Shown piece after piece: positions 401-53,867 of a stretch of 64,000 nucleotides of DNA. Numbering within the stretch: position 1 is the first letter of the stretch; each line of letters opens with the position of its first letter. The stretch covers positions 1 through 64,000 of the IMG/VR virus record IMGVR_UViG_3300034072_002256; one strand, written 5' to 3'. A program made the translations under genes and the position numbers. This DNA is from a virus. The notes below the pieces were generated by a model. It had not been told where the DNA came from and ran no database searches. It saw only the letters and a list, made by a program, of their open reading frames with translations.

Positions 401-1495
401 TTAATCTATCCAACGAGCATAAATTCGGCGGATCATGCCCCAGTCTTTGTGTCCCATTTGCTTTGCTATTCTGGATGGGTCTTCACCTGCGGTCAGCATG
501 GTCGATGCATAGGTATGGCGGCAGGTGTATTGGCTGCGATAGGCGACATTTGCGAGTTTGAGTGCTGGATTCCAAAAACGCTCGCGTGGGACGCCATCAT
601 AAACCCACGGTTTCATGTTGCGCGGATCTAGAAAAATACGTTGCTCTGGTGCTAGGTCAGGGTGATAGCTTTTAATGTGCTTTAGCACTGCCAAAGCTCG
701 GCTATCAAGTTCATGAGTACGGGCAGAACTCAGCGTTTTTGTGCCTGCTGTTTTGCCATTGACGATAGATTGGCGGATGTAAATGCGTGGTTTGTCACGG
801 TCTAAATCAATGTCCTGCCAGCGCAGGCCTAATTGTTCACCGGTACGTAAACCAGTCCAAAACGCAAATATGTAAAAATCGCGGGCAGCATTGTCTGGTA
901 GGGCATTAATAATCTTTTCGCGTTCATCAGCCGTGAAGGGTTTCGGCTCGGGCGCAGTCCTGGCGGCAGGTTTGCATTTATCAATTGGGTTATTCGCTAG
1001 AATGTCGTCATATACCAGTTCCTTGAAAACGCAGTGCAGTACAGAGCGGATTTCATTGATGGATTTACCAGATAAATCAACCTGCGCCGCCCAGTCTTTA
1101 TAGTGAGATGGCTTAAATTCTGCTGCTGTCATCTGGCCAAAATTGGGCAGAACATGCGTGTTTACCTTACTGACATATCCTCGATAAGTGCTGCGTGCCC
1201 AGTTTTTGCTGTTTCGATGAAACCATAAATCTACTGCTTTACTGATGGTTATATACGCGGCTTTATTGTTGCTGAATTTGTAAGCATTAGGGCTCGCAGG
1301 AAAATGTCTAGCGTAATCGAATTGCCCCATATCAATTTCATAAAGAACCTGTTCACGTTTGCGCGCGACTTCAGCTAATCGGGTTTTTGTTGGCGCACCG
1401 CGAATGGTTTCGCGGCAGCGAACTGCCTGATACATAAACTCAATTCGAATTGAGTTTTCACCGGCATAAATACCTTTGTATTGGGTTGGCTGCAT
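401..1495 (-). CDS. int: Tyrosine recombinase / phage-type integrase
   Basis: 364 residues. An N-terminal arm-binding region of the DUF3596 kind (residues about 1-70) is followed by a core-binding domain (about 80-175) and the catalytic domain (about 185-364). Visible catalytic residues are R217 (in GLRTGE), K248 or K253, R326 with H327 (in TCRHTYAS), H349 (in KQMGHKDW) and the nucleophile Y359. The enzyme would integrate and excise the older element by site-specific recombination. The reading frame stops only five residues after the tyrosine, shorter than usual for this family. Downstream of xis with a 3-bp gap, so probably one operon. ATG start beside the xis stop codon. Confidence 0.93.
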   Translation of the reverse strand: MQPTQYKGIYAGENSIRIEFMYQAVRCRETIRGAPTKTRLAEVARKREQVLYEIDMGQFDYARHFPASPNAYKFSNNKAAYITISKAVDLWFHRNSKNWARSTYRGYVSKVNTHVLPNFGQMTAAEFKPSHYKDWAAQVDLSGKSINEIRSVLHCVFKELVYDDILANNPIDKCKPAARTAPEPKPFTADEREKIINALPDNAARDFYIFAFWTGLRTGEQLGLRWQDIDLDRDKPRIYIRQSIVNGKTAGTKTLSSARTHELDSRALAVLKHIKSYHPDLAPEQRIFLDPRNMKPWVYDGVPRERFWNPALKLANVAYRSQYTCRHTYASTMLTAGEDPSRIAKQMGHKDWGMIRRIYARWID

Positions 1496-1498
1496 GAC

Positions 1499-1711
1499 TT
1501 AATTCCCTGTTTCAATCCAATCCTGAAAAGCAGGAAGACAAATAAAAATGCGTCCATTGCGTTTAGTCCAGTGAACATCTAAGCGGATCTTGCCTTTAAC
1601 ACGTAATGCATTTATCGCATCTTTGGACCAACCAATCAGTTCTGCACATTTTTCGACTGTCACCCATTTGAGTGGGTACGACTGAAGTAAATCTTGATCT
1701 GTTTGCTTCAT
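1499..1711 (-). CDS. xis: Excisionase / small AlpA-like DNA-binding protein
   Basis: 70 residues. The helix-turn-helix region WVTVEKCAELIGWSKDAIN near the N-terminus followed by a basic wing (VHWTKRNGRIFI) resembles Xis/Cox-type recombination directionality factors. I chose the ATG at 1711 rather than the one at 1723 because GAGG lies six bases before it. It sits immediately upstream of the integrase in the same direction, the usual arrangement for an excision factor. Some members of this class also act as repressors, so a regulatory role is possible. Confidence 0.8.
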   Translation of the reverse strand: MKQTDQDLLQSYPLKWVTVEKCAELIGWSKDAINALRVKGKIRLDVHWTKRNGRIFICLPAFQDWIETGN

Positions 1712-1755
1712 GAATAGCCTCATTTAAGGGATAGCAAAAGCCAGCCCTTTTAAAT

Positions 1756-2031
1756 TCAATTAATGGGGATTTTCAAAAAAATGGCGCCAATAGCAGATTG
1801 CGGAATTACTTTGGGGCTTAGGTTGGTTGGTTTTTCGCCCTGACAATGAATGTAATCAATTACCCCCCAGTCGTCAACTGCGAATATTGATAAAATAGCT
1901 ATAAATATCATGGTGTTAACGACGTTAATGGCGTTAACGGTTTCAACGGTGTTAAAGGCATAGTTGGCTTCAACACCGTTAAAGAGAAATAAACCGATTA
2001 AGATTTGATGATTTAAAAAAGTACTAAACAT
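1756..2031 (-). CDS. Doubtful small ORF spanning a 9-bp repeat tract
   Basis: An open frame of 91 codons starting MFSTFLNHQILIG. Its middle is a three-residue repeat (TVE-TVN-AIN-VVN-T) that simply reflects the 9-bp tandem repeat in the DNA. No family is recognised and coding potential looks weak. The stretch 1712-2041 between xis and the next gene may instead be a regulatory region or iteron-like site. Confidence 0.2.
   Translation of the reverse strand: MFSTFLNHQILIGLFLFNGVEANYAFNTVETVNAINVVNTMIFIAILSIFAVDDWGVIDYIHCQGEKPTNLSPKVIPQSAIGAIFLKIPIN
1912..1956. repeat. Five tandem 9-bp repeats, consensus GGYGTTAAC
   Basis: Units read GGTGTTAAC, GACGTTAAT, GGCGTTAAC, GGTTTCAAC and GGTGTTAAA without spacers. 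An inverted partner, AACACCGTTAAA, follows at 1972-1983. Such an array between xis and the replication genes of an integrative element could bind a replication or regulatory protein. Confidence 0.7.
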
Positions 2032-2041
2032 CTGAATTTAA

Positions 2042-2284
2042 TCACTTTTCATTGATGATTCTGTAGGTTTTACAAAATTCGGCTTTTGTGAACTGTCCTA
2101 CTCGGTCGATGAACTTCACAACAATTTCGACTTGTTCGTTTAGTGTCAGGACTCCGCAGATAATCCCGAGATTTTCAGGCTGAAACTTTGTCTCCCGATC
2201 AATTTTGATAACGGTCAGATTTATGAGCTCGACGACTTCAGAAATACTGAATTGTTCGCTGTTTGATATTTTGGGTTTAGTCAT
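2042..2284 (-). CDS. Hypothetical protein of the integrative element
   Basis: 80 residues, starting MTKPKISNSEQFSISEVVEL. GGAA six bases before the ATG is a plausible ribosome site. Mostly charged and helical, no transmembrane segment, no motif recognised. It follows the rep gene by 16 bp on the same strand, so the two are probably co-transcribed; a role in replication or copy control is only a guess from position. Confidence 0.5.
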   Translation of the reverse strand: MTKPKISNSEQFSISEVVELINLTVIKIDRETKFQPENLGIICGVLTLNEQVEIVVKFIDRVGQFTKAEFCKTYRIINEK

Positions 2285-2336
2285 TTCATGTTCCGTACAG
2301 TTATTTACACAAGTCCAAGGTTGCCCCCTCGCGTCC

Positions 2337-2370
2337 CGACACCGACCCGCCTAAAGGCGGGATGGTGTCG
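2337..2370. repeat. GC-rich inverted repeat inside the rep 3' end, candidate origin hairpin
   Basis: CGACACC (2337-2343) pairs with GGTGTCG (2364-2370), and inside it CCCGCC (2346-2351) pairs with GGCGGG (2356-2361) around a TAAA loop. It stands out from AT-rich surroundings. Phage P2 carries its replication origin inside gene A, so this could be the Rep nicking hairpin. A folded mRNA end is the alternative. Confidence 0.5.
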
Positions 2371-3787
2371 GTGCCACTCGGCGGCCCCGGTGTGATGTGC
2401 CATTTTCGAAAGCGAGTAATTAGAGTGAACCCGCGATAGTTGAAACCAACTACCGAAGGCTTTCGGATTTCCTGATAGCGATTTAAAACGGACTTGCAGA
2501 CTTCCCCAGTCTGAAAATCGATTTCCTCACTTTCGCGGATTTGATAACACGGGCTGAGCGTGTGTTCTTTTTTGGGTGTATTGACTGACTTCATTGCGAT
2601 GCAAAACGCCGCCCAGTTGGCACTATCTGCGGCAGCGTATGAGTCATTTAAATCGTAAAACGGTGAGTCACAGGCTTTAAGTCGGCGCAGTTCCCGCCAG
2701 ACCGTAACACTTGGCCCGCCGATCTGCTGGAACTGGCGAATACCTGCCGCTTTTGACCATGCGTTGATGCGGGCAGCGACCAAATCTGAGGCTTGGCCGC
2801 TGGTGTCGGTGCCGACTGCAAAGCCATCGATGTTTTTTGAGATGTATTTGGCGATGTAGCCGGCAGCGCTGCCTTTTTGTGGGTCTATGTCGATGAACTT
2901 CACCCGATACAGTTTTGCGCCTTTCTCGTCTGGCGAATCCTGCAAGCCATAGTGGCTGATGATGTCTTTAAATGGTTGTAGTTGGTGCGGCGCCATAAAC
3001 AGCAACAGGTGCCAGTGCGGTGTTCCGTCGTGGTGCGGTTCAACTACGCGAAAGCCATAAGGTTTGATTTGTTCGCGGTCTAGTTTGGCGCGGCAGAGTT
3101 GCCAGACATGATTCAGATAATCCTGGGCATCGTTAATGCTGGAACCGTCATAAGCAGAATTCGGAATGCCGGTGGCGTTGGTGGCGTGCATCCGTGATGG
3201 TGTAGTTAAAGTGACGAATACCGCTACGTGCTGGCAGTATTGGGCGACTTCTTCAAAGCCGCGAATTCTGACCATCAGTTCATGACGGCGGATCACCGGA
3301 TTACTGATGTTGTGTTCGGCAATCTCCGACAGCGGAATACTGAAACCTTCTTCATTTTGCAGATAGGTGTTTTGCATGTATTGCTGGCTTAAGAGCTGAT
3401 TGTGGCGGTGCCGGTTTAACGAGACATCACCGCAATACACGGCCCGACGTTTTGACACATAACCCAATGCGCGCTCGACCTGATTAATCAGTGATGCCGT
3501 TTTGCGGCGAATACGGCGCAGCCAGAACTTGGCATCCTGCAGCCGGTTTTGTATTTCGGTGTTGGTGTAGTCGAGTTTGCCCAACTGGTATTGCTCGAAA
3601 CGGAGCAGGGCAGAGGCAAGGTCAGCGGTTTTGCAGTAATCGGCCTGACTAACGGCAAAGCGTTTGAGTTCGGAAAGGTCAGCCGAGAAATCGAGATCAG
3701 CAATCACCATCGCCTGATGAATGGTATTGAGCAGATAGAGGGCGTGATTTTCTTCGACCAGCTGTTGGTCAGACAGATATTTTTTCA

Positions 3788-3792
3788 GGATG
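3788..3792. repeat. 5-bp target duplication GGATG, left copy
   Basis: GGATG directly precedes the left prophage end TGTAACCC. The same five bases follow its right end at 42370-42374. Five-bp duplications are typical of Mu transposition. Confidence 0.88.
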
Positions 3793-3994
3793 TGTAACCC
3801 ACCGTTAGGTTTGATAATAACAGAGGTAATAAGGGAATAGATGGGAAAAAGCGGGAATTCATGGGAATTCCTTTGACCACAAGGCTTAGAGACGAGTGTT
3901 ACATGATTTTTGTCGGCGAAGAATCGAATGCGTGTGCCGTACGATTTGATAAAAACGAAGCCACAAAAATGAATGAGTTCGAAGAGTTTGATAA
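3793..3994. other. Left end (attL) of left prophage with three transposase-binding motifs
   Basis: TTTGATAA occurs at 3810-3817, 3945-3952 and 3987-3994, that is 18-25, 153-160 and 195-202 bp from the end. This resembles the L1, L2 and L3 layout of phage Mu, where L2 and L3 are close together and far from L1. The remaining noncoding stretch to 4213 holds the GATCCCTTT repeats. An ORF on the plus strand at 3861-4160 overlaps the sites and looks spurious. Confidence 0.7.
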
Positions 3995-4074
3995 ATTCAG
4001 GAAAAAGCACCCATTCAAGGAGGATCCAAGTAAATTGGGGCTTCAAGGCCAGTTTAAGATGGTTTTAAAATCGA

Positions 4075-11272: not shown

Positions 11273-11751
11273 AGTTAGGCCGCTGCCCAGTTTGTCACAG
11301 TCACATTCAGCTGGACGCATTGATCCAGGATGAAGCTGGCCGTCAGCTACTTGGCCTGATGTCAAAGCTGGGTTACCAGCTGGCACCGGCGCTGGTGAGT
11401 TATCTGGGCCTGTTCCGGCCCGCCAAACAAGACCTATCCAATGGCCGCGCTTTAAATCTGGCGCAAGAAACACTGGCACTGACATCTAACCAGCCGTTGT
11501 TGGCTGAGGCACTGCGCGAGACTGTGCAAAGCATTCACAACAAACGGCACCAGGGCGAAAACAAGCCGCTGGCCAATCACAACTATCTAAGGCGGGTGAT
11601 GGAAGCCAAGGCGCAAGCGCCGGTGGCCAATCGTTCGCCCAGTATTGAGCTGAAGCAACAGCACCAGCTGTCAGCAGCGGAAGACCGCAGATTGTTTGAA
11701 GAGCGCATGCAGCAGTTAGGCGGCCGTGTATTTACCAAGGTGGAACCATGA
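11269..11751 (+). CDS. Hypothetical protein with N-terminal CPVC motif
   Basis: 160 residues. RCPVCHSHIQLDALIQDEAG at the start suggests a half zinc-knuckle or metal site; the rest is helical and basic, with ALRETVQSIHNKRHQGENKP in the middle. It sits between gemA and mor with ATGA overlaps on both sides and is nearly identical in the right prophage. A DNA-binding role is possible but unproven. Confidence 0.65.
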   Translation: MKLGRCPVCHSHIQLDALIQDEAGRQLLGLMSKLGYQLAPALVSYLGLFRPAKQDLSNGRALNLAQETLALTSNQPLLAEALRETVQSIHNKRHQGENKPLANHNYLRRVMEAKAQAPVANRSPSIELKQQHQLSAAEDRRLFEERMQQLGGRVFTKVEP

Positions 11752-12170
11752 GCGAACAGCAGTTAGACGCCTTTTCGACGCCAGAAGAACTGCAGGATTT
11801 ACTGCAGCAGTTGGAGAATTTGCCTGACGACCAGCGTCAGGATGTGGTGAAACGCATTCCGGCCATGCTCCAAAGCCTGATGGCACTGTTCACCAGTGAG
11901 CTGCGCAGCAAAGGCGCCAAGGATCCAGAACGGCTGGCAGAACACCTGGTGATTTGCATGGCGAACTACTTTGGCGGCATGCAGCTGTATTTACCACGCA
12001 ACGATAAGCTGGCGCTGGAACTTCGCAACATCCGGATTTACCAGCAACACCGGGGCGGCAATACAGAACAGCTGGCGCGCCAATACGGCCTGACGTCAAT
12101 TCAGATTTATCATATCGTGCGGGAGCAGACTGTGGCTGAGCGGGCTAGACGGCAGATGGGGTTGTTTTAG
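11748..12170 (+). CDS. mor: Mor-family middle/late transcription activator
   Basis: 140 residues. The C-terminal half matches the Mor/C family: YFGGMQLYLPR, then LRNIRIYQQHRGGNTEQLAR, then YGLTSIQIYHIVREQ, an HTH that binds middle or late promoters. The N-terminus is the acidic dimerisation region. It ends the early operon. No separate C gene was seen, so this single activator may control all later transcription. Confidence 0.92.
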   Translation: MSEQQLDAFSTPEELQDLLQQLENLPDDQRQDVVKRIPAMLQSLMALFTSELRSKGAKDPERLAEHLVICMANYFGGMQLYLPRNDKLALELRNIRIYQQHRGGNTEQLARQYGLTSIQIYHIVREQTVAERARRQMGLF

Positions 12171-12183
12171 AAACGCTAGGTTG

Positions 12184-12213
12184 TTGAGTCTTTTAAATGT
12201 TTTCCGTTATAGT
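12184..12213 (+). promoter_or_regulatory. Promoter after mor driving the ParB/Dam cassette
   Basis: TTGAGT (12184-12189) and TATAGT (12208-12213) are 18 bp apart, close to the sigma-70 consensus, and AAAGGAAA precedes the next ATG. The segment is conserved in the right prophage while bases on either side vary. In Mu the Mor-dependent promoter lies just downstream of mor, so Mor control is possible. The good -35 suggests it may also work alone in the lysogen. Confidence 0.65.
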
Positions 12214-12242
12214 CACAAAATTGACCATGCAAAGGAAAGCCA

Positions 12243-13691
12243 ATGTACTCTTCTGAAACTCTCAACCTCGCAAAACTTGTTGTTAACCAAGACAATCCTC
12301 GATTTCCTGAACCTCAAGAAAATCAAAGAGCTGCAATAAACACAATGCTCAGGTTACAACAAGATAAGTTAATACAACTGGCAACTGATATTTGCGAAAG
12401 AGGATTAGATCCGACTGAAAGAGTTTTAGTGGTGCCATCGATTGAATATGAGGGGCGCTTTAAGGTCCTCGAGGGAAATCGTCGTATAACTGCGCTTAAA
12501 ATTTTGCACGAAAATGGTTTGATAGATGATGAAAAGACAAAAGCTGTTATAAGCCGACTAGCAAAAACAGCTCAGTCACTACCTCAGACAATCGAATGTG
12601 CAGTTCTGGAGGATGAGGCAGACTCTGAGCACTGGGTTTCATTGAAACATACAGGACAGAATAGTGGAAAGGGTCGTGTTGAATGGCAAACTACTGAAAA
12701 AGAACGTTTTAAAGCTAGCCTAGGCAAAGAATCCTATACGAATCAATTTTATACATATCTTATGTCGGAAGACATGTTTGAAGATATGAGAGCTGATATC
12801 AAAAGGTTGGTCAAACCTACGAATATAGGTCGCTTGCTAGGCGATCCGCATGTTCGAAAATGTCTCAATTTGGAGCCAATAAACGGTTTTTTATTTTGCA
12901 AGATTTCTAAAGAACAATTCTTTGATAAGTGTTATGTGTTGGTCAATGAAATGCTTGGTAACGGTGCTATCGAAAACTTTCGAGTGCAGAACATTTTTTA
13001 TAAAGAAGACCGCTCAGGTTTGATGTCAAAGCTCCGCATCAATGAGTTTTTCACTGGATTGAGAGACAAACCATGGAAAATTAGTGAGCCTCAGAAATAT
13101 CAGGAAGAAACACCGAATTCGCAAACTCAGGGAAGTGAGACTCAGCAAAGTGGTTCTGAAAAAAGCAGAAATGCCAATCAAGAAAGCACTTCCACTACTA
13201 CTGATACGACTAAACCTGATAATAAAGAAACCGGCAGCAGGAAGCATCGACCTGAAAATTCAGATAGGAATAAACTGATTAGTCAGTATTTTACGCTTAA
13301 AATTGAGTCTCAAAAGTGCAATGAGATATTTAAGGAGCTGAAAACGAAGTTAGTTCCTATTGAACCGTATAAATACAGCATTAGTGTAATGATACGAATT
13401 TTTCTCGATTTATCAGTCTCATACTTCATCGAGCATAGAGTACCCAAGGCAAAGAGAGTAAAATGCCAAGGGCTACATGAAAAAATAGTTTTTGTTAGCA
13501 ACTACTTGCGAGACAATGACGAATTGGCACCGAGTCAAGCGACCGCAGTACAGACATTTTCCAGCTCTGTTACGGGGAGAACTGGTGATTTACAACAGTA
13601 TGTACATAACGAAAGTTTCCAGCCCGAAAAATCCAAGCTTATTGCCGAGTGGGATAATTTTTCTCCCTTATTTCGCGCTATCTGGAAATAA
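12243..13691 (+). CDS. ParB/Srx-fold protein with Ser/Thr-rich linker and C-terminal helical domain
   Basis: 482 residues. Residues about 8-90 look like a ParB N-terminal (ParB/sulfiredoxin-fold) domain with NPRF (18-21) and the nucleotide-binding GNRR motif (78-81, in VLEGNRRITALK). A Ser/Thr/Gln-rich linker (about 285-343) leads to a C-terminal helical domain (about 344-482). The DNA is more AT-rich than its neighbours. It is 15 bp upstream of a Dam-type methylase and the pair is present in both prophages. CTP-dependent DNA clamping or a nuclease is possible for this fold; true function is unknown. It is not next to a ParA gene, so partition is unlikely. Confidence 0.75.
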   Translation: MYSSETLNLAKLVVNQDNPRFPEPQENQRAAINTMLRLQQDKLIQLATDICERGLDPTERVLVVPSIEYEGRFKVLEGNRRITALKILHENGLIDDEKTKAVISRLAKTAQSLPQTIECAVLEDEADSEHWVSLKHTGQNSGKGRVEWQTTEKERFKASLGKESYTNQFYTYLMSEDMFEDMRADIKRLVKPTNIGRLLGDPHVRKCLNLEPINGFLFCKISKEQFFDKCYVLVNEMLGNGAIENFRVQNIFYKEDRSGLMSKLRINEFFTGLRDKPWKISEPQKYQEETPNSQTQGSETQQSGSEKSRNANQESTSTTTDTTKPDNKETGSRKHRPENSDRNKLISQYFTLKIESQKCNEIFKELKTKLVPIEPYKYSISVMIRIFLDLSVSYFIEHRVPKAKRVKCQGLHEKIVFVSNYLRDNDELAPSQATAVQTFSSSVTGRTGDLQQYVHNESFQPEKSKLIAEWDNFSPLFRAIWK

Positions 13692-13706
13692 CAAGGTCAA
13701 TTTGGA

Positions 13707-14561
13707 ATGAGATACTACACCCCGTTACGGTACCCAGGTGGAAAAGGCAAGCTTTCCTATTTCTTAAAAGCGTTGCTAGAAGATAATAATCTTGTTGGAG
13801 GCGCTTATGTAGAGCCATTTGCTGGTGGTGCAGGGATAGCCTTAGAATTGCTCCTTCAAGAATTTGTTAGCGAGATTTACATAAACGACATCGACTACGC
13901 TGTTTATTCTTTTTGGCGCTCTGTTATCGACCACACTGAAGATTTGTGTGCTGCTATTGAAAATACAGCAGTGACAATCGATGAATGGCATAAGCAACGT
14001 GAAATACTGAAATCTTCAGATGACATTTTGGAATTAGGGTTTGCTGCGTTTTTTTTAAACAGAACAAATCGGTCAGGGATTCTCAATGCAGGTGTAATCG
14101 GAGGGAAAAAGCAAGACGGAAAGTGGAAACTTGATGTCAGATTTAACAAGGCGGAGCTAATCGAACGAATCCGAAAAATAGCAAGTCATAGAGAGCGTAT
14201 TCATGTTACCAATATGGATGCTGTTCAATTCTTAAACACAATCACACATATTTTGCCGCGTCGTTCTTTAATTTATTTAGACCCGCCCTATTACGTAAAA
14301 GGGCAAGGTCTCTACAGGAACTTTTACGAACATCAAGATCATGTAGATATAAAAAATGTCGTCGCGAGTATTCCTGATATTCCTTGGATGGTTTCGTACG
14401 ACAATTGCCCTGCGATTAGAGAAATTTATTCAGATTTTGAAATCTTTGAGTACGCACTCCAGTACACGGCGCAGGATAAGAAGGTTGGTTCGGAACTAAT
14501 GGTTTTCTCCGACTCACTAGCACTGCCTGAAACAACGCTTGGCAAAAGTCTAGTAGCTTAG
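13707..14561 (+). CDS. D12-class DNA N6-adenine methyltransferase (Dam-like)
   Basis: 284 residues. Motif order is that of alpha-type (D12/Dam) enzymes: RYPGGKGKL at the start, SAM-binding EPFAGGAG (36-43), FFLNRTNRSGI near 115-125 and catalytic DPPY (192-195). It should transfer methyl groups to adenine in DNA, and GATC is the most usual target of the class. No restriction endonuclease gene is adjacent, so it may protect phage DNA, regulate phage promoters or act with the ParB-like protein upstream. AAGG precedes the ATG. AT-rich, probably acquired cargo. Confidence 0.88.
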   Translation: MRYYTPLRYPGGKGKLSYFLKALLEDNNLVGGAYVEPFAGGAGIALELLLQEFVSEIYINDIDYAVYSFWRSVIDHTEDLCAAIENTAVTIDEWHKQREILKSSDDILELGFAAFFLNRTNRSGILNAGVIGGKKQDGKWKLDVRFNKAELIERIRKIASHRERIHVTNMDAVQFLNTITHILPRRSLIYLDPPYYVKGQGLYRNFYEHQDHVDIKNVVASIPDIPWMVSYDNCPAIREIYSDFEIFEYALQYTAQDKKVGSELMVFSDSLALPETTLGKSLVA

Positions 14562-14597
14562 TTAAGTAGTTTAATCTCAACAGTTTATCTAGAAAAA

Positions 14598-14633
14598 CTA
14601 ATCTGCGGTCACCAATGACCAACCGCAGATTAG
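14598..14633 (+). promoter_or_regulatory. Perfect 12-bp stem-loop between Dam and lysis genes
   Basis: CTAATCTGCGGT (14598-14609) pairs with ACCGCAGATTAG (14622-14633) around a 12-base loop, ending four bases before the next ATG. No T-run follows, so it is not a standard terminator. It might control translation of the following gene. Unchanged in the right prophage. Confidence 0.6.
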
Positions 14634-14637
14634 GCCG

Positions 14638-15072
14638 ATGTCCCCCAAGCTTAAACTCCATTTAAAAACTCATTCTTTTTCCCACGGCACCTATGGCGAA
14701 CTGTTTGACGGTAATACCGGCGAACGGCTTTGCGTAACGGTCGAATGCCCCTGGTTAAACAACGAAGCGGGCCGCAGCTGTGTGCCGGCCGGCGACTATG
14801 TTGTTGAATTCCATGTCAGCCCACGCTTTGGCAAATCCCTGATTATTGCCGCACCAAGTCTTGGTGTTACCCACGAAGGCCCGAGCCTTCGCACTCACTG
14901 TTTATTCCATGCCGCTAACCGGGCGTCAGAACTCAAAGGCTGTATTGCGCCAGGTGTGCGTTTTGGCTCTGTTGACGATGACTGGGCAGTGCTGGATTCG
15001 CGTAAAGCACTCGACAAGCTGCTGGTACTGGTTGGCAACGATAAAGTGCCACTGCGTATCGAGCGTGCGTGA
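14638..15072 (+). CDS. DUF5675 family protein, probable lysis-associated enzyme
   Basis: 144 residues. The pattern SVPAGDY-like (CVPAGDYVVE), a His/Cys-rich THCLFHAANRASELKGCIAPG stretch (86-106) and AVLDSRKAL fits DUF5675, a family found where phages carry lysis genes. The His and GCI arrangement recalls L,D-transpeptidase-like folds, though catalysis is unproven. It precedes a small gene and a 3TM holin, so it may be the cell-wall enzyme of the lysis cassette; no classical lysozyme is seen elsewhere. Confidence 0.72.
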   Translation: MSPKLKLHLKTHSFSHGTYGELFDGNTGERLCVTVECPWLNNEAGRSCVPAGDYVVEFHVSPRFGKSLIIAAPSLGVTHEGPSLRTHCLFHAANRASELKGCIAPGVRFGSVDDDWAVLDSRKALDKLLVLVGNDKVPLRIERA

Positions 15073-34975: not shown

Positions 34976-36399
34976 GTTTCGCGCAGTGGATAAAGCTACC
35001 GGCCCTCGACCGTTGTTACCTGCTGGAAGTGTCTTATCGCCTTGCTGGCCAGTTGTATGTGCTGCGCCGTTCGACGCATCCGTATCGGACGCACCCTGGC
35101 GATACGCCGGCACTCACGCCATACCCGGACACTATTTTGCAGTTGCCGGAATTTGAACGTGACATGACCGAAGTCTTTGCCGGCTTTAGTCGCACCGGGT
35201 TTGGTGATCTGCAGCTTTTCCTCGATGACGATATCCAGATGCTGATTGACTCCGCCAACGTGGCCGGCATGAGTGTGACGCTGCGCTGTGGTGACATGAG
35301 CTGGCCATTATCAGACTTTGGGGTGGTGCTTTCAGGTGCTCGGGTGGAACAGCTCGATGCAGTCAGTAGTGATACAGCGCGCCTTAGCTTCAAAGACGCG
35401 GCAGCGCTTTTCGATACGCCGGTCCCAAGGGCCACCATCAGCACCGGGCCAAATGCCGGCAAGCCAGTGCCCCTGACATACGGCCGCTGCTTTAACGTGA
35501 GTCCTGAGCTGATTAACGAAGCGACGCGCACTTACCAGGTCCATGATGGCGCGGTACAGGCCATCACTTCGGTGCGGGAAAATGGCCTCGCCATTCCTTA
35601 CACCGCGAACCTCGCCGCCGGCACTTTTACTCTGACGAACAATGCCAAAGGTCGCATTACAGCAGACGTTGATGGCGCGGTGGTGAGCAGTACCTGGTTG
35701 CAGTCAGCCAAACAAATTATTGATGCCCTGATTAGCCGGATAGGCATTGCGCCTTCAACCGGCACACTGCCGGGTTATGCACTGGGCCTTTTTATCGGCC
35801 GGGACCAAACCCTGAAATCTGCACTGGATGATTTGGTGTCATCGGTGGGCGGTTCCTGGGCATTTAACCGGGCAGGCCAACTTGTTTTAACGACTTTTAA
35901 TGCCCCGTTAAACCCAACTGCGATGCTTACGGCAGACGATATCGCTGACGCAAGTCTGTTACCGCGCCGCCGCTTAGCACCTGCCAAAAGTGTGAAGCTT
36001 GGGTATCGGCGCAACTGGACACCGCAGGCTGATGGCCTTGCCGGCAGTGTGCGCGAAACGATGCCGGGACAAGCTGCGCTTTATGAGGCTCAGGAGAGCC
36101 TGGTCACTGCCATTAATCCTGATAACCCGGACTATCCGGATGCGGCGGTTATTAGTCACAGCACCCTGATTGCGAGCCAGGCGGATGCACAGACTGAAGC
36201 AAGCCGGCGGGCAGTTTTAGGTGCAGTTCCCCGGACGGTCTTTGAACTCAGTGCCTTTACCGCACCGCTTGCGATGGAGCTTGGCCAAGTCGTGCAGGTG
36301 ACATATCCGCAGTATTTCGAGGCAGGCGCGCCTGCAGTCATTACCCGCATTGTTGATGTGCTTTCTGACAATACCTGCAAGCTGGAGATTTACCGATGA
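34972..36399 (+). CDS. Tail tip/hub protein (B3-like)
   Basis: 475 residues starting MSFAQWIKLPALDRCYLLEV, overlapping the tape-measure stop by 4 bp. Conserved-looking parts are FARSG-like GFSRTGFGDLQLFLDDD, PVPLTYGRCFNV and a C-terminal ELGQVVQVTYPQYFEAGAPA, similar to tail proteins after the tape measure in transposable siphoviruses. A distal tail or hub role is inferred from position. Confidence 0.65.
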   Translation: MSFAQWIKLPALDRCYLLEVSYRLAGQLYVLRRSTHPYRTHPGDTPALTPYPDTILQLPEFERDMTEVFAGFSRTGFGDLQLFLDDDIQMLIDSANVAGMSVTLRCGDMSWPLSDFGVVLSGARVEQLDAVSSDTARLSFKDAAALFDTPVPRATISTGPNAGKPVPLTYGRCFNVSPELINEATRTYQVHDGAVQAITSVRENGLAIPYTANLAAGTFTLTNNAKGRITADVDGAVVSSTWLQSAKQIIDALISRIGIAPSTGTLPGYALGLFIGRDQTLKSALDDLVSSVGGSWAFNRAGQLVLTTFNAPLNPTAMLTADDIADASLLPRRRLAPAKSVKLGYRRNWTPQADGLAGSVRETMPGQAALYEAQESLVTAINPDNPDYPDAAVISHSTLIASQADAQTEASRRAVLGAVPRTVFELSAFTAPLAMELGQVVQVTYPQYFEAGAPAVITRIVDVLSDNTCKLEIYR

Positions 36400-51548: not shown

Positions 51549-52997
51549 ATGTACTCTTCTGAAACTCTCAACCTCTCAAAACTTGTTGTTAACCAAGATA
51601 ATCCTCGATTTCCTGAACCTCAAGAAAATCAAAGAGCTGCAATAAACACAATGCTAAGGTTACAACAAGACAAGTTAATACAACTGGCAACTGACATTTG
51701 CGAAAGAGGATTAGATCCCACTGAAAGAGTACTAGTGGTGCCATCTATTGAATATGACGGACGCTTCAAGGTCCTCGAGGGGAATCGTCGTATAACCGCG
51801 CTTAAAATTTTGCACGAAAATGGTTTGATTGATGATGAAAAGACAAAAGCGGTCATCAGCCGACTAGCAAAAACAGCTCAGTCACTGCCTCAGACAATTG
51901 AATGTGCAGTTCTGGAGGATGAGTCAGACTCTGAGCACTGGGTTTCATTGAAACATACAGGGCAGAATAGCGGAAAGGGTCGTGTTGAATGGCAAACCAC
52001 TGAAAAAGAACGTTTTAAAGCTAGCCTAGGCAATGAGTCCTATACGAATCAATTTTATACATATCTTATGTCGGAAGACATGTTTGAGGATTTGAGAGCT
52101 GATATCAAAAAGTTGGTCAAACCTACGAATATTGGTCGTTTGTTAGGCGATCCTTATGTTCGGAAATGCCTTAATTTGGAGCCAATAAACGGTTTTTTAT
52201 TTTGCAAGATTTCTAAAGAACAATTCTTTGACAAGTGCTATGTGTTAATTAATGAAATGCTTGGTAACGGTACTATCGAAAACTTTCGAGTGCAGAACAT
52301 TTTTTATAAAGAAGACCGCTTAGGCCTAATGTCAAAGCTCCGGATCAATGAATTTTTCACTGGATTAAGAGACAAGCCTTGGAAAATTAGTGAACCTCAG
52401 AAATATCAAGAAGAAACACCGAATTCGCAAACTGAGGGAAGTGCGACTCAGCAAAGTGGCTCTGAAAAAAGCAGAAATGCCAATCAAGATAGCTCTTCCA
52501 CTACTACTGATGCGACTAAACAAGATAATTCAGAAACCGGCAGCAGGAAGCATCGTCCTGAAAATTCAGACAGGAACAAACTGATCAGTCAGTATTTTAC
52601 GCTTAAAATTGAGTCCCAAAAGTGCAATGAGATATTTAAGGAGCTAAAAACGAAGTTAGTTCCTATTGAACCGTATAAATACAGCATTAGTGTAATGATA
52701 AGAATTTTTCTTGATTTATCAGTCTCATACTTCATCGAGCATAGAGTACCGAAGGCTAAGAGAGTAAAATGCCAAGGGCTACATGAAAAAATAGTTTTTG
52801 TTAGCAACTACTTGCGAGACAATGACGAATTGGCACCGAGTCAAGCGACCGCAGTACAGACATTTTCCAGCTCTGTTACGGGAAGAACTGGTGATTTGCA
52901 ACAGTATGTACACAACGAAAGTTTCCAGCCAGAAAAGTCCAAGCTTATTGCCGAGTGGGATAATTTTTCTCCCCTATTTCGTGCTATCTGGAAATAA
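51549..52997 (+). CDS. ParB/Srx-fold protein with Ser/Thr-rich linker
   Basis: 482 residues. GNRR motif and NPRF are kept. Differences from the left copy cluster in the Ser/Thr-rich linker, while the N-terminal and C-terminal domains change little, as expected for folded functional domains. Followed 15 bp later by the methylase. Confidence 0.75.
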   Translation: MYSSETLNLSKLVVNQDNPRFPEPQENQRAAINTMLRLQQDKLIQLATDICERGLDPTERVLVVPSIEYDGRFKVLEGNRRITALKILHENGLIDDEKTKAVISRLAKTAQSLPQTIECAVLEDESDSEHWVSLKHTGQNSGKGRVEWQTTEKERFKASLGNESYTNQFYTYLMSEDMFEDLRADIKKLVKPTNIGRLLGDPYVRKCLNLEPINGFLFCKISKEQFFDKCYVLINEMLGNGTIENFRVQNIFYKEDRLGLMSKLRINEFFTGLRDKPWKISEPQKYQEETPNSQTEGSATQQSGSEKSRNANQDSSSTTTDATKQDNSETGSRKHRPENSDRNKLISQYFTLKIESQKCNEIFKELKTKLVPIEPYKYSISVMIRIFLDLSVSYFIEHRVPKAKRVKCQGLHEKIVFVSNYLRDNDELAPSQATAVQTFSSSVTGRTGDLQQYVHNESFQPEKSKLIAEWDNFSPLFRAIWK

Positions 52998-53012
52998 CAA
53001 GGTCAATTTAAA

Positions 53013-53867
53013 ATGAGATACTACACCCCGTTACGGTACCCAGGTGGAAAAGGCAAGCTCTCCTACTTTATAAAAGCGTTGCTAGAAGATAATAATCTTG
53101 TTGGAGGCGCTTATGTAGAGCCATTCGCCGGTGGTGCAGGGATAGCCTTAGAATTGCTCCTTCAAGAATTTGTTAGCGAGATTTACATAAACGACATCGA
53201 CTATGCTGTTTATTCTTTTTGGCGTTCTGTTATCGACCATACTGAAGACCTGTGTGCGGCTATTGAAAATACAGCTGTGACAATCGATGAATGGCATAAG
53301 CAACGTGAAATACTGAAATCTTCAGATAACATTTTAGAATTAGGGTTTGCAGCATTTTTTTTAAACAGAACAAATCGGTCTGGGATTCTTAATGCAGGTG
53401 TAATCGGTGGGAAGAAGCAAGACGGAAAGTGGAAACTTGATGTCAGATTTAACAAGTCAGAGTTAATCGAACGAATCCGAAAAATTGCAAGTCATAGAGA
53501 ACGTATTCATGTTTCCAATCTGGATGCTGTTCAATTCTTGAACACAATCACGCATATTTTGCCGCGTCGTTCTCTAATTTATTTAGACCCTCCGTATTAT
53601 GTAAAAGGACAAGGTCTCTACAGGAACTTTTACGAACATCAAGATCATGTAGATATAAAAAATGTTGTAGCGAGTATTCTTGATATACCTTGGATGGTTT
53701 CGTACGACAATTGTCCTGCGATTAGAGAAATTTATTCAGATTTTGAAATCTTTGAGTATGCACTCCAGTACACTGCGCAGGATAAGAAAGTTGGTTCGGA
53801 ATTGATGGTTTTCTCTGACTCACTCGTACTGCCTGAAGCAACACTTGGTAAAAGTCTAGTAGCTTAG
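53013..53867 (+). CDS. D12-class DNA N6-adenine methyltransferase (Dam-like)
   Basis: 284 residues with PGGKGKL, EPFAGGAG and DPPY all unchanged. About nine substitutions from the left enzyme (for example SYFIKAL, SSDNILE, SNLDAVQ), none in motifs. Confidence 0.88.
   Translation: MRYYTPLRYPGGKGKLSYFIKALLEDNNLVGGAYVEPFAGGAGIALELLLQEFVSEIYINDIDYAVYSFWRSVIDHTEDLCAAIENTAVTIDEWHKQREILKSSDNILELGFAAFFLNRTNRSGILNAGVIGGKKQDGKWKLDVRFNKSELIERIRKIASHRERIHVSNLDAVQFLNTITHILPRRSLIYLDPPYYVKGQGLYRNFYEHQDHVDIKNVVASILDIPWMVSYDNCPAIREIYSDFEIFEYALQYTAQDKKVGSELMVFSDSLVLPEATLGKSLVA

Follow-up and report, generated by a model that had tools for sequence, protein, structure and literature searches.

Two adjacent genes located between Mor and the lysis region of a Mu-like prophage very likely constitute a divergent PD-λ-5 system with a role in anti-phage defence, and defence is predicted for this copy. 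PD-λ-5 itself has already been described; here it is swappable cargo of Mu-like prophages. A known, mechanistically unexplained defence system is thereby located in a cargo site of these phages for which no earlier hotspot label was found. The analysed 64,000-nt stretch of DNA (the window) comes from an IMG/VR virus record of 75,273 bases and carries two copies of the pair, referred to below as A and B:

11748–12170, plus strand: Mor transcription activator gene (PF08765), left edge of the cargo interval
12184–12213, plus strand: candidate sigma-70 promoter, TTGAGT-18-TATAGT, near-identical in both copies, not above chance expectation
12243–13691, plus strand: PD-Lambda-5_A, 482 aa, with a modelled ParB/Srx-fold domain (~1–285), disordered linker (289–329) and C-terminal HEPN-like helical domain (~340–482)
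13707–14561, plus strand: PD-Lambda-5_B, 284 aa, D12-class N6-adenine DNA methylase with intact motifs
14598–14633, no strand assigned: hairpin of 14 pairs at the right-hand border of the variable cargo, kept beside unrelated cargo in relatives
14638–15072, plus strand: DUF5675 gene of the lysis region, flanking the cargo interval on the right
51549–52997, plus strand: second copy of PD-Lambda-5_A, in the second Mu-like prophage, of the same length as the first
53013–53867, plus strand: second copy of PD-Lambda-5_B, in the second Mu-like prophage, of the same length as the first

Assignment of the pair to PD-λ-5

Searches against PADLOC matched A to PD-Lambda-5_A (PDLC03998; E = 1.4e-139) over residues 1–482 and profile positions 1–465 of 466, and B to PD-Lambda-5_B (PDLC04018; E = 2.6e-127) over residues 1–277. 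As both proteins were thus matched nearly end to end, we assign the pair to PD-λ-5. In Pfam, A had no significant match, and NCBIfam gave it no name either; B was recovered as MethyltransfD12 (4.7e-23), which together with its DPPY motif identifies it as the D12 N6-adenine methylase that an earlier note on this DNA had taken it for.

For PD-λ-5, Vassallo et al. 2022 (PMC9519451) report isolation through a functional selection for anti-phage loci in E. coli, lowered plaquing or plaque size for all phages tested but one, and a host strain without the mrr region, and they term it a compact RM+Abi system. The prophage in which it was first found is P2-like, and in Actinobacteria, too, the system is frequently carried by prophages (PMC10482375). 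By analogy, anti-phage activity would be expected of the window's copy. Defence against other phages, one of three roles offered in the earlier note, hence gains support from the anti-phage activity of PD-λ-5 in E. coli; the note's statement that no characterised system with this pair was known is wrong, given the description of PD-λ-5 (PMC9519451).

The homologous pair of E. coli G47-1 (A ~38% and B ~58% identical to the window's proteins) resides between the replication endonuclease and portal genes of a P2-like prophage, a site presented by Vassallo et al. as a P2 defence hotspot (PMC9519451). This form was found in 22 of 5426 E. coli genomes, and identity between the window's A and enterobacterial homologues reached only ~38–40%. 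Among the papers covered by the literature search, none was found that explains how PD-λ-5 works, and none that describes the system between Mor and the lysis genes of a Mu-like phage.

Two copies in neighbouring Mu-like prophages

The window contains two adjacent Mu-like prophages (5362–41529 and 43943–64000). To the left of the first, minus-strand genes at 404–4046 encode a tyrosine integrase and a P2-type replication protein A (Phage_GPA), and are part of another phage or a remnant thereof. The Mu-like prophages themselves are mosaics, with transposase genes of 58.5% DNA identity, whereas the neighbouring genes compared are 89–98% identical.

As described in the earlier note, the 482-residue ParB-like protein and the D12 methylase form a tight pair in both prophages, with a gap of 15 bp in the first copy according to ORF coordinates and a second copy spanning 51549–53867. 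Judged by sequence, these copies sit in two different Mu-like prophages, since A and B share 94% DNA identity and the transposase genes only the 58.5% given above. At the protein level, the copies are 96.5% (A) and 97.2% (B) identical. The 17 residues at which the A copies differ include seven within positions 296–328, part of the disordered linker, in line with the earlier observation of few changes outside it. With dN/dS values between copies of 0.067 (A) and 0.044 (B), both proteins are kept by purifying selection. The pair is also AT-rich relative to its surroundings, as previously noted (GC content of 39–41% vs. 46–56% in the flanking genes compared).

Neither a ParA gene nor a nuclease gene was seen between Mor and DUF5675, which agrees with the earlier reading. 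The promoter of its own with which the pair had been credited is weakly suggested: the two copies are nearly identical there, but neither the promoter scan nor the terminator scan yielded more matches than shuffled sequence did. The hairpin at 14598–14633 has its T run on the minus strand and is terminator-like there.

The Mor–DUF5675 interval is a cargo hotspot

Comparison with related phages revealed the interval between Mor and DUF5675 (12171–14592) to be a cargo hotspot, because flanks of ~90–94% identity enclose unrelated genes. In loci L166–L170, the Mor protein is 95–99% identical and the DNA flanks are ~90–94% identical, yet the intervening cargo consists of an HTH gene, an M78 (IrrE-like) peptidase gene and further small genes. 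The HTH and M78 genes resemble parts of CapH/CapP and RosmerTA. Other relatives carry HTH, M78 and Panacea-domain genes (L171) or an AAA_25 ATPase gene (L172) there, and close relatives thus hold toxin-antitoxin-like or defence-like genes in the same interval. PD-λ-5 occupies this place again in L003, where identity is just 42% for A and 69% for B, and A does so in L023. In Vibrio phage vB-Vv-ZX4290, the flanking genes are ~90 bp apart, an apparently empty site. The breakpoints of the cargo fall just past the Mor stop codon on the left and, on the right, at the hairpin kept by relatives.

A is predicted to combine a ParB/Srx-like domain with a C-terminal helical domain

The structure prediction that the earlier note had proposed for the ParB-like protein was carried out with AlphaFold2, supplied with 94 homologues (mean pLDDT 88.8), and returned an N-terminal mixed domain, a disordered linker (289–329) and a C-terminal helical domain. 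The N-terminal fold is ParB/Srx in the model: among solved structures, Foldseek ranked ParB, Noc and KorB as closest to the full-length model (E-values of 1.7e-4 to 8.6e-4), followed by sulfiredoxin. The earlier reading of a ParB/Srx fold with a GNRR box was therefore right for the N-terminus and missed the C-terminal helical domain. Invariant over the 94 homologues are N18, R20, GNRR (78–81), H136, W148 and R197.

A feature of the ParB CTPase clamp, the ParB/Srx fold with a GxRRxxA-type box, is present in A. The second ParB nucleotide motif, ENxxR, is absent: G occupies position 142 in 91 of 94 homologues, and position 143 is mostly A, V or I, not R. This site instead carries an HxG...GxG...W block, whose H and W are invariant.

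Modelled alone, the C-terminal domain reached a pLDDT of 95.0 and a pTM of 0.89. Its best Foldseek matches were HepT/HEPN toxins, none of them significant (E-values of 0.63 or worse, TM-scores of 0.38–0.57), and the HEPN motif RX4-6H occurs in only one of 89 homologues. As the predicted structure only weakly resembles these toxins, we term the domain HEPN-like, not HEPN. E365, R385 and H455 are nearly invariant in it. Pfam, NCBIfam and fold searches identified no nuclease family in A; a sequence search of the PDB gave no match with A alone and nothing reliable with an A profile. A low-E profile match of the C-terminal domain was discarded as a repeat artefact.

A and B are near-obligate partners

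A scan of viral contigs with the single A sequence recovered one relative only, and an alignment of A was needed as the query for more; this query brought in 80 viral plus 80 genomic loci. The A loci span Proteobacteria, Bacteroidota, Clostridia, Actinobacteria, Chloroflexota, Bdellovibrio, archaea and others. Among 163 loci, a set that was built with A as the query and contains near-duplicates (118 pairs remain below 85% identity), 156 had a B-family ORF within 4 kb of A, counting L085, whose B is only a weak fragment located upstream. Recurrence beyond these prophages, on which the earlier note had made its proposal depend, is thus found across many phyla. The two genes are adjacent on the same strand in 139 of the paired loci, adjacent and convergent in 11, and further apart in six. 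Six of the seven loci without a nearby B end at a contig edge within ~100 bp of A, and the seventh, Vibrio phage PQ189371, encodes B elsewhere in the same genome. The A–B pairing is, hence, near-obligate.

The Vibrio phage record (L004; A at 1–1656, B at 35343–36158) is the sole fully testable case of a pair far apart along the linear record. The convergent gene adjoining its A bears the label of a type II restriction enzyme.

Distances among A proteins correlated with those among B proteins over the 118 non-redundant pairs (Mantel r = 0.73; best of 1000 permutations, 0.09). This fits joint inheritance of the two genes and could come from joint inheritance alone.

The methylase also pairs with an OLD/Gabija-like ATPase

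B carries DPPY and FAGG motifs, DPPY being invariant in every member compared. The most conserved stretch of the protein is 113–154 (mean majority fraction 0.76 vs. 0.56 overall), by its position the presumed target-recognition region. Such conservation is the opposite of what would be expected for differing sites, from which we infer that the B family may read one common recognition sequence.

Inspection of gene neighbourhoods revealed another partner of B. In five loci, an AAA ATPase of ~540–560 aa (Pfam AAA_15/AAA_21), with only partial PADLOC matches (PtuA, GajA, AbiL), is encoded between A and B. When viral loci were retrieved with B as the query, 23 had A as a neighbour, 12 had the ATPase without A and one had all three. 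The two further arrangements are:

A, AAA ATPase and B methylase (three-gene version): L037, L146, L150, L152, L163, L189
ATPase and B without A: L176, 3995–6707 (E. coli 042); L179–L184, L188, L192, L198, L201, L205, L207

The ATPase–B pair type of E. coli 042 was found in 85 of 5426 E. coli genomes, and the methylase of this locus likewise matches PADLOC PD-Lambda-5_B. On a quick B tree, the ATPase-only loci require eight changes, at least seven of them forced by well-supported branches, so the partners have been swapped several times. The repeated pairing of B with an OLD-like ATPase supports a logic of modification plus effector.

We tentatively propose, as a possibility short of an even chance, that B provides a common self-mark with one recognition sequence that serves two unrelated effectors, A and the OLD/Gabija-like ATPase, sometimes within one operon. 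If true, this would define a distinct class of modification-guided immunity, in which effectors are exchangeable and the mark stays constant. A shared methylase with a second effector also offers a direct route to testing self/non-self discrimination by PD-λ-5: if the mark is shared, effector swaps between A-type and ATPase-type loci should work.

Proposed mechanism and alternative readings

In the mechanism that we moderately favour, B provides a self-mark and A is both sensor and effector. The PD-λ-5 pair is interchangeable cargo of the Mor/lysis interval, and its expression in the lysogen would probably serve to keep competing phages out. B would methylate adenines within one fixed sequence motif, in the DNA of host and prophage alike, and A would survey DNA via its ParB-like domain. 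Incoming unmethylated DNA may then activate the C-terminal helical domain of A, which could act as a nuclease or a growth-stopping effector.

An unlikely rival is a methylation-controlled toxin-antitoxin or addiction module, in which toxin A is restrained by B through methylation or binding, the prophage is stabilised and defence is a by-product. The near-obligate pairing, the small operon, a helical domain with HEPN toxins as its nearest folds, and the RosmerTA/CapHP-like HTH and M78 peptidase genes in the same interval of related phages would all suit such a module. However, B has all the parts of a DNA methylase and its catalytic motifs are invariant, it serves another kind of partner, and the E. 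coli system has demonstrated defence. Exchange of A for the ATPase is easier to reconcile with a modification module whose effectors can be swapped than with a plain toxin-antitoxin pair.

We regard it as improbable that B shields the DNA of the Mu-like phage from host restriction, with A as a partition-like or packaging accessory. Mom protects Mu DNA in this way, orphan methylases are common on phages, and the pair does lie in a prophage; but bacterial contigs from many phyla carry it as well, A accompanies B in every kind of element, and PD-λ-5 cloned away from its prophage still defends. Least probable is a reading of A as a divergent ParB that serves segregation or gene control, with B as an epigenetic switch, since the ParB/Srx fold and GNRR box are countered by the extra C-terminal domain, the block replacing ENxxR and the defence phenotype in E. 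coli. Partition or centromere function as the main explanation was rejected, given that ParA and ENxxR are both absent.

Comparison with known systems

The E. coli PD-λ-5 system and the window's pair share gene order, a prophage location and nearly full-length matches of both proteins; they differ in setting, the E. coli homologue occupying the P2 hotspot and the window's pair lying between Mor and DUF5675 of Mu-like phages. Type II restriction-modification systems likewise place an adenine methylase next to a presumed effector, but no recognised restriction nuclease accompanies the window's pair, and a diverse recognition stretch would be expected for them, whereas the presumed one of B is conserved across phyla. 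With type IV restriction by GmrSD/BrxU (DUF262, ParB/Srx-like fold), A shares a ParB/Srx-like N-terminal domain and a predicted part in DNA-targeting defence, and GmrSD_N gave a weak match in two of 94 A homologues. In contrast to these enzymes, no HNH (DUF1524) domain was found in A, which is paired with a methylase, and its whole-model match to BrxU was not significant (E-value of 2.0). From ParB, Noc and KorB, with which it shares the N-terminal fold (Foldseek E-value of 1.7e-4 to Caulobacter ParB) and the GxRRxxA-type box, A departs by lacking ENxxR and ParA and by its different C-terminal domain. Finally, OLD/Gabija/Septu-type ATPases, at loci outside the window, adjoin a methylase of the same family as B, with an AAA ATPase as the effector instead of A.
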